A stretch of 28,113 nucleotides of DNA from a virus, in IMG/VR virus record IMGVR_UViG_3300012985_000020, positions 1 to 28,113 of that record, one strand, 5' to 3'. The notes under the pieces are model-generated. The model did no database searches, had not been told where the DNA came from, and was given only the letters and a program-made list of their open reading frames with translations. The first letter of the stretch is position 1, and each line of letters opens with the position of its first letter. This document shows positions 6,691-7,317 of the stretch, piece by piece. The position numbers and the translations under genes were made by a program.

Positions 6691-6692
6691 AG

Positions 6693-6781
6693 GCGTAAGG
6701 TGGGATTCGAACCCACGGAATCGGATGCCTCCTAATCACGAGCTTTAAGCCCGCTGCATTCAGCCTCTCTGCCACTCACGC
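6693..6781 (-). tRNA. tRNA-Leu (anticodon UAA)
   Basis: Complete cloverleaf on the minus strand, 89 nt. Acceptor GCGTGAG pairs with CTTACGC (one G-U), the D-stem is GCA/TGC, the anticodon stem GCGGG/CTCGT encloses the loop CTTAAAG with anticodon TAA, and there is a long class II variable arm. The T-arm GTGGG-TTCGAAT-CCCAC is canonical. The CCA end is not encoded and the base after the acceptor is C instead of the usual A, so 3' maturation depends on host enzymes. UUA is a common codon in this AT-rich genome. Confidence 0.92.
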
Positions 6782-6825
6782 GAAATTGACCGGCCACTGT
6801 CCCAACCCACCCCCAACGGGGACGC

Positions 6826-6869
6826 TATGCGACTCAAATGAGTTTCTGCTTTCGCTTCATCAGGCTATA
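6826..6869 (-). ncRNA. Candidate hammerhead ribozyme (type I topology)
   Basis: The minus strand contains every invariant residue of the hammerhead core in order. CTGATGA is at 6863-6857, and stem II is GC-GAAA-GC with an A-A pair at its base. GAAA is at 6846-6843. Stem III is ACTC/GAGT closed by ATTT. TC at 6832-6831 sets the predicted cleavage after C6831. Stem I pairs GC with GC, then UAU with AUA across one bulged A, and may extend through CCCCC (6876-6872) with GGGGG (6814-6810). GACCGG (6899-6894) pairs with CCGGTC (6793-6788), enclosing the whole element. The weak point is the A-A at 10.1/11.1, normally G-C. It lies between two tRNA-type elements. Confidence 0.6.
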
Positions 6870-6929
6870 AAGGGGGCTGCACCTCAACATATACCGGTCT
6901 GGAGGTAGTGAGCTTCTTTGTTTAACATA

Positions 6930-7022
6930 AGCACGTGTTGGAGTTGCGCCAACGACCCTCTTCTATGACTGGACGAATCCAGCTTATCTCGAAGATGCTC
7001 TAACTACCTGAGCTAACATGCC
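6930..7022 (-). ncRNA. tRNA-like element with 27-nt anticodon loop
   Basis: Minus strand. Acceptor GGCATGT/ACGTGCT (two wobbles), then TA, D-arm GCTC-AGGTAGTTA-GAGC, A26, anticodon stem TCTTC/GAAGA, a 5-nt variable loop and T-stem GTTGG/CCAAC all fit a tRNA exactly. Two things do not. The anticodon loop is 27 nt instead of 7 and contains its own hairpin, CTGGA-TTCG-TCCAG. The T-loop reads CGCAACT instead of TTCAACT. The loop begins GAGATAA, close to the Ile(GAT) loop CTGATAA, and ends TCATA, close to a CAT loop. It could be a tRNA with a short insert, a decayed tRNA, or a tRNA mimic. Confidence 0.55.
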
Positions 7023-7149
7023 ACAACGGGGCCTTTTAACGTGACTCACCCCAGCACCATCCGTTTCTTCCCAAGCTCCGGACAAACAGTCGGATGCGAA
7101 TCGCACCCCTTTGTACGATAAATACGTACAACTTAAAATATCTAGACCT
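7023..7149. other. Unresolved, probably structured non-coding segment
   Basis: No convincing gene. The segment 7023-7114 is bounded by ACAACGGGG and CCCCTTTGT, which pair over nine positions with one mismatch, and it abuts the tRNA-like element with no gap. Inside is a hairpin-forming GATGCGAATCGCA stretch (7093-7105). I could not fold it into a cloverleaf on either strand. Confidence 0.4.
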
Positions 7150-7317
7150 CTAACATTCTGTACAAATCCACATGAATGCTTTATGACCGATGACCATATT
7201 CATGAGAGATTTGCATTTAGGACAAGATGGTATCTCAATGGTATTGCCAAACACATCTGCAGCCTTAGCTTCCCAACAGTCTGTAGACTGTGAAGAGTCA
7301 TTTTCATCCTCTAACAT
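7150..7317 (-). CDS. Small zinc-ribbon protein
   Basis: Fifty-five residues starting at ATG 7317, chosen because GAGGAAGT precedes it; a longer frame from 7392 would overlap the previous gene heavily. The acidic N-terminus (MLEDENDSSQSTD) is followed by a classic four-Cys ribbon: PSCPKCKSLMN, then MWICTEC at the very C-terminus. It is the most downstream protein gene before the RNA cluster. Likely binds zinc; partner unknown. Confidence 0.7.
   Translation of the reverse strand: MLEDENDSSQSTDCWEAKAADVFGNTIEIPSCPKCKSLMNMVIGHKAFMWICTEC

Follow-up and report, generated by a model that had tools for sequence, protein, structure and literature searches.

The minus strand of positions 6788-6907 in the virus record IMGVR_UViG_3300012985_000020 (28,113 bases, hereafter called the window) very likely encodes an RNA from a family of phage noncoding RNAs that appears not to have been described before and in which two nested pseudoknots hold a built-in type I hammerhead ribozyme that would make a defined break. 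The record carries a P22-like portal gene at one end, and the element lies in a minus-strand stretch between small open reading frames (ORFs) and a gene for tRNA-Leu(UAA). Comparison with relatives supports the hammerhead core, four further helices (Pa, P1, P2, and P3), a fixed position of the predicted cut, and a scaffold that is conserved even without the ribozyme.

Hammerhead core and pseudoknot scaffold in the window

The core of the window hammerhead is complete, with C3 U4 G5 A6 N7 G8 A9 and G12 A13 A14 (GAA at 6846-6844) in place, the A15.1-U16.1 pair present, and C6831, not G, at H17. Its parts follow in the order stem I, core, stem II, GAAA, stem III, H17, and stem I, with 2 + 3 base pairs (bp) in stem I (GC/GC plus UAU/AUA around the single bulged A6866), 2 bp in stem II, and 4 bp in stem III. 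Direct reading and parsing confirmed all hammerhead positions, the order, and the spacing that an earlier note on this DNA had described on the minus strand, and its view that a chance origin is very unlikely was borne out as well, since no compact hammerhead of this quality appeared in 600 dinucleotide shuffles of the window and the chance expectation with relaxed stem lengths was 0.038 hammerheads per window. The canonical pair at 10.1-11.1, which is usual in hammerheads and not invariant, is replaced by A6856-A6847.

The hammerhead is one module of a larger RNA, and the strand order Pa, P1, Pa', P2, hammerhead, P3, P2', P3', P1', present in the window, is common to three classes of relatives, namely class B (type I hammerheads within a larger conserved RNA), class C (elements like that of the window), and class C2 (a small third group). 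Pa with P1 and P2 with P3 form two pseudoknots, the second nested within the first. The enclosing pairings CCCCC/GGGGG (6876-6872/6814-6810) and GACCGG/CCGGTC (6899-6894/6793-6788) reported in the earlier note are indeed present, as P2 and P1, respectively, and Pa and P3 had been missed. Single-sequence folding of the region was no better than that of shuffles with a program that cannot represent pseudoknots, and the case for the structure therefore rests on comparison. From 5' to 3', the element comprises the following features.

6902-6907, minus strand: 5' strand of Pa, TACCTC, pairing with 6885-6880 (parsed; the helix covaries in class C relatives)
6894-6899, minus strand: 5' strand of P1, GACCGG, within the Pa loop and pairing with 6793-6788 as pseudoknot 1 (parsed, model search)
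6880-6885, minus strand: 3' strand of Pa, GAGGTG (parsed)
6872-6876, minus strand: 5' strand of P2, CCCCC, pairing with 6814-6810 (parsed; class B covariation)
6864-6869, minus strand: 5' strand of hammerhead stem I, TATAGC, with bulged A6866 (read directly and parsed)
6857-6863, minus strand: hammerhead core C3-A9, CTGATGA (read directly and parsed)
6848-6855, minus strand: stem II, GC-GAAA-GC, flanked by A10.1 (6856) and A11.1 (6847) (read directly and parsed)
6843-6846, minus strand: core GAAA, that is, G12 A13 A14 A15.1 (read directly and parsed)
6832-6843, minus strand: stem III and its loop, ACTC-ATTT-GAGT, including A15.1-U16.1 (A6843-U6832) (read directly and parsed)
6830-6831, minus strand: predicted cleavage site between C17 (6831) and G1.1 (6830) (from hammerhead anatomy)
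6824-6830, minus strand: 3' strand of stem I and joint, GCATAGC, start of the predicted 3' product (parsed)
6819-6823, minus strand: 5' strand of P3, GTCCC, pairing with 6803-6799 as pseudoknot 2 with P2 (parsed; class B covariation)
6810-6814, minus strand: 3' strand of P2, GGGGG (parsed)
6799-6803, minus strand: 3' strand of P3, GGGAC (parsed)
6788-6793, minus strand: 3' strand of P1, CCGGTC (parsed)

Relatives, covariation, and variation of the ribozyme

Relatives were sought with the pattern CTGANGANGCGAAAGCNGAAA in viral contigs and in a cellular genome collection. At least 119 viral stretches matched and were sorted into classes B, C, and C2, coding false positives, and class A, a separate thing consisting of type III hammerheads just upstream of ORFs. 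The same pattern in the larger cellular-genome scan gave 36 matches, nearly all of them apparently chance occurrences in coding sequence, with a single real element in a Rhizobiales bin contig. Named carriers are Mycobacterium phage Gaia, Arthrobacter phages Karkharias and Constance, the M. abscessus prophage phiGD24-3, and Enterobacter phage SDFMU_EhYP. When the flanks of 100 elements were compared, only 10 related pairs were found, and the contexts of the elements are therefore largely independent. No match was obtained when a class B element was searched against plasmids with blastn, and a permissive hammerhead-plus-pseudoknot scan, which returned too many chance matches, was set aside. With regard to class A, viral contigs (L004, L013, L019, L020, L023, L024, and others) carry apparent type III hammerheads (CTGTC-GCAAGG...CCTTGC-CTGATGA-AGCGAAAGCA-GAAACAG) that immediately precede a ribosome-binding site and ATG, and Rfam detected none at the three such loci tried (L002, L020, and L023).

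Covariation was tested in class B, with helix positions fixed by sequence anchors alone and with partners swapped among elements as the control. All six pairs were formed in 98/103 elements for P3 (18% with swapped partners), in 75/76 for P2 (22%), and in 70/76 for Pa (12%), and several middle helix positions used all four Watson-Crick pairs. The covariation in related phages for which the earlier note had called is thus near-complete in Pa, P2, and P3, as judged by class B anchors in about 100 relatives from largely unrelated contexts. Furthermore, a covariance model built from six class C elements with the window left out (R1) matched the window at 6786-6913 on the minus strand with 109.9 bits (E=2e-22); it also matched several class B and C2 members (L102, L119, L100, L053, L008, L038, and L035), and elsewhere in 274 kb, including control phage loci, it gave nothing below E=1.9. 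The compensatory changes in every enclosing helix of relatives, together with an intact core and an H17 that is never G, strongly support the identification of the window element as a hammerhead. A chance resemblance, to which the shortness of the core would lend itself, has a negligible probability and is already refuted by the relatives, given the empty shuffles, the R1 match, and the excess of viral over cellular matches.

Among 74 parsed class B hammerheads, H17 was C in 45, A in 25, U in 4, and G in none, N7 varied, and the predicted cut fell exactly 2 nt before GUGGA in all 74. The 10.1-11.1 position was A-A in 22, U-U in 10, and G-C in 38; among the 70 distinct hammerhead sequences, A10.1-A11.1 occurred in 21, none with G17. 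Hammerheads with A-A had C17 (20) or U17 (2) and never A17, and those with G10.1-C11.1 had A17 (20) or C17 (17). Such coupling would be expected under selection for cutting, with a weaker pair needing a better cleavage residue, and shared ancestry may contribute. Elsewhere in the ribozyme, the outer part of stem I, UAU/AUA in the window, is UUU/AAA in four relatives (L016, L090, L349, and L362), and in Mycobacterium phage Gaia C3 and G8 are replaced by U3 and A8, a compensatory exchange with which hammerheads are known to retain activity (PMC3088659).

These counts also bear on the suggestion of the earlier note that the A-A pair at the base of stem II could mean lost activity, according to which the element would be a catalytically dead relic, its three-way junction kept as structure only and its cleavage abolished by the mismatch in this phage. 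In favor of a relic, the 10.1-11.1 pair is usually G-C and has been described as among the most conserved hammerhead pairs, with U-U the best-tolerated mispair (PMC3088659). However, all 22 parsed relatives with A-A carry an allowed H17, none of them A17, and the window core is otherwise complete. Loss of activity is therefore not supported, and a relic is very unlikely; A10.1-A11.1 is a recurrent natural variant and hence does not suggest decay.

Hammerhead-free scaffolds, tRNA context, and the probable role of the cut

A scaffold-only scan returned 104 stretches, 86 of them distinct among the loci read, and about 22 scaffolds had no hammerhead between P2 and GUGGA while all helices and conserved joints were kept. 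In addition, visual inspection showed nine loci in which the halves of the element are swapped, so that the hammerhead leads and the P1/Pa half comes at the end; the element of Enterobacter phage SDFMU_EhYP is also permuted, giving at least ten circularly permuted relatives in all. The automatic permuted label also picked up a few elements that have a variant anchor and are not permuted (e.g., L119), so that its counts are approximate. The SDFMU_EhYP element (OQ884031, ~19.5-19.75 kb) contains a hammerhead, immediately follows a terminator-like hairpin in the interval from the capsid to the tail tubular genes, and is enclosed by a AAGAGCACTG/CAGTGCTCTT stem, and in L322 a permuted scaffold without a hammerhead lies directly 3' of a tRNA-Leu. 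The cut position relative to the scaffold is the same in the unpermuted and permuted orders. A recent gain or loss of the hammerhead was not seen, since among the flanks of the 100 elements no two related loci differed in carrying it. Two further observations concern these scaffolds: in L249 (~286-430), two hammerhead-less scaffolds stand in tandem about 110 bp apart, and a recurring hairpin around CGGAAAGACG comes after the final helix in permuted as well as C2 elements (L252, L293, L304, L038, L053, and L102).

The pseudoknots could instead be only a peripheral domain holding stems I and II in an active arrangement, in the manner of the loop-loop contacts or simpler pseudoknots of other hammerheads. 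This tertiary stabilization is rather improbable as their sole role, considering that about 22 scaffolds keep the helices and conserved joints with no hammerhead to stabilize and that permuted forms carry the scaffold wholly 3' of the hammerhead. The conservation of the scaffold in elements that lack the ribozyme leads us to infer that the scaffold is functional in itself and is opened or trimmed by the cut. The ribozyme most likely serves to give the scaffold RNA a break or end at a defined place. More broadly, the elements probably represent a widespread, undescribed class of phage noncoding RNAs, linear or permuted, in which the scaffold has a phage function and an optional hammerhead serves solely to open one conserved position.

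In the window, the element and tRNA-Leu would be transcribed together from the minus strand, after which the RNA would fold and undergo self-cleavage between C6831 and G6830. The upstream piece would end in a 2',3'-cyclic phosphate and the downstream piece, GCAUAGC..., would start with a 5'-OH. Both pieces would be joined by P1 and P2, and the immediate product would be a nicked two-piece pseudoknot RNA, not two freed transcripts. As the predicted cut lies on the upstream side of tRNA-Leu, 49 nt from its 5' end, the break would also part the tRNA-Leu transcript covalently from the upstream RNA; this follows from the position of the cut, from which a purpose does not follow.

The earlier note had proposed that the hammerhead cuts a polycistronic tRNA transcript, in which case tRNA maturation would be its task and the pseudoknots would only aid folding. 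The context gives some reason to consider this. The tRNA-Leu gene begins 6 nt past P1 in the window, 27/100 elements have a same-strand tRNA no more than 150 nt away (opposite strand, 0; control positions, 1/385), and about one-third of relatives are found in or adjoining tRNA genes, with which they always share the strand. In phiGD24-3 the element occupies the gap between tRNA-Ser and tRNA-Trp, and a similar processing role has been suggested for the HDV-like theta ribozymes, which gut phages carry at the 3' ends of tRNAs (PMC10879173). On the other hand, in about two-thirds of relatives no tRNA was detected up to 1.5 kb away, scaffolds lacking the hammerhead also occur in tRNA arrays, and the products of a cut 49 nt before the tRNA would stay base-paired. 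Cutting of the tRNA transcript is thus a possible role, and it cannot be the whole story, because only about one-third of the elements are near a tRNA, about 22 scaffolds have no hammerhead, and P1 and P2 would hold the products; as the main purpose of the element we consider it unlikely, though less so than mere tertiary stabilization. No neighboring gene common to the elements was found. A role as packaging RNA, raised by the location of several elements near terminase genes, was rejected as too weakly supported (8 observed vs 4.2 expected).

Several points weigh against a ribozyme-bearing family RNA in the window. The Rfam hammerhead models stayed below threshold in the window and relatives: only a tRNA reached the gathering score in the window, with no hammerhead even at E<=10, and relatives, including ones with complete cores, gave only tRNA and one tmRNA (L119). 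The earlier note had named the absence of such a match on the minus strand in advance as counting against its identification; the silence of Rfam says little, because Rfam also missed every related locus tried, although no positive control for its hammerhead models was run. Stem I of the window hammerhead has few pairs and a bulge, and slower cleavage is to be expected from A10.1-A11.1. Class C, the small subfamily to which the window element belongs, comprises seven distinct sequences, and the helices of the ten class C and C2 elements, which differ in sequence with the pairing kept, were chosen for pairing, so that the unbiased covariation test is that of class B only. The class B elements in Karkharias, Constance, and phiGD24-3 are not detected by R1, and the link between the classes therefore consists of the shared topology and of R1 matches to only some class B members. 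Lastly, cleavage is predicted from sequence and the two-piece product is deduced from it, and the scaffold has no identified partner protein or function.

Relation to known RNAs and neighboring features

Phage hammerheads have been known since about 2010-2011, and the purpose of most of them is unclear. GOLLD and ROOL are ornate phage noncoding RNAs, often located beside tRNAs and far larger than the window element; neither these nor any other such family was matched by Rfam in the window or the relatives tested. Prophage hammerheads, two-base-pair stems II, the U-U mismatch at 10.1-11.1, which is known to be active, and simpler pseudoknots have all been published (Perreault et al. 2011, PMC3088659). 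The window element shares with the type I prophage hammerheads of that study the CUGANGA / GAAA / NUH core, the three stems, the open stem I, and the phage setting, and there are precedents for its stem II of two base pairs and for a mismatch at 10.1-11.1. Unlike those hammerheads, it sits in two nested pseudoknots whose four extra helices are also found without the ribozyme, its stem II opens with A-A, and Rfam does not find it. The search in that study discarded candidates mispaired at 10.1-11.1 unless their activity had been measured (PMC3088659); the family may have been overlooked because the Rfam models miss it and this main published search discarded such mispairs. PaP3 and Bcep176, whose hammerheads were assayed there, were considered as members and rejected, with class B anchors and R1 giving nothing significant.

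Theta ribozymes, which are HDV-like, tRNA-associated, and found in gut phages, cut at the tRNA 3' end (PMC10879173) and resemble the window element as self-cleaving motifs beside phage tRNA genes. They differ in having an HDV-type fold at the tRNA 3' end, whereas the window has a hammerhead core upstream of the tRNA and many members of its family lie away from tRNAs. In non-circularly permuted hammerheads (HRIMA-1), the reordering of core blocks places the pseudoknots inside the core (Eckert and Weinberg 2023, PMC10085705). The window element likewise combines a hammerhead core with pseudoknots, but its core is in the ordinary order, the pseudoknots are outside the core, and the permutation in its family is circular and affects the scaffold. 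No report of a hammerhead combined with a nested-pseudoknot scaffold was found in the openly licensed full-text literature. The novelty of the family is hence likely rather than certain, and the scaffold may be a new RNA class. With an optional hammerhead in an RNA that exists with it, without it, and permuted, comparison of the natural versions can show what the cut does, and lab-grown phages carrying the element make the role of the ribozyme testable.

In the window itself, the 4.5 kb around the element gave no DNA match among 50,697 phage records, and blastn of this region against named phages yielded no relative. In close relatives of the neighboring window genes (L201-L204, DUF3310 loci), the corresponding position held no convincing hammerhead. 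Between the last ORF and the upstream neighbor, positions 7080-7150 of the minus strand contain strong stem-loops (TTGTACG/CGTACAA and GGGTGCGATTCGCATCC), for which no Rfam family was matched. The two neighbors of the element are as follows.

6692-6781, minus strand: tRNA-Leu(UAA), downstream neighbor, a genuine tRNA
6929-7022, minus strand: tRNA-like gene, upstream neighbor, with good acceptor, D, and T stems

The earlier note had placed the hammerhead between tRNA-type elements, which holds fully for the downstream side; the upstream gene is tRNA-like, with an inserted hairpin of about 20 nt in its anticodon loop, and was reported by ARAGORN only in intron or low-threshold modes. Intron-type tRNAs were also seen near the elements in L016 (+84), L362 (+229), L015, and L285, compared with 0 in 77 control loci.
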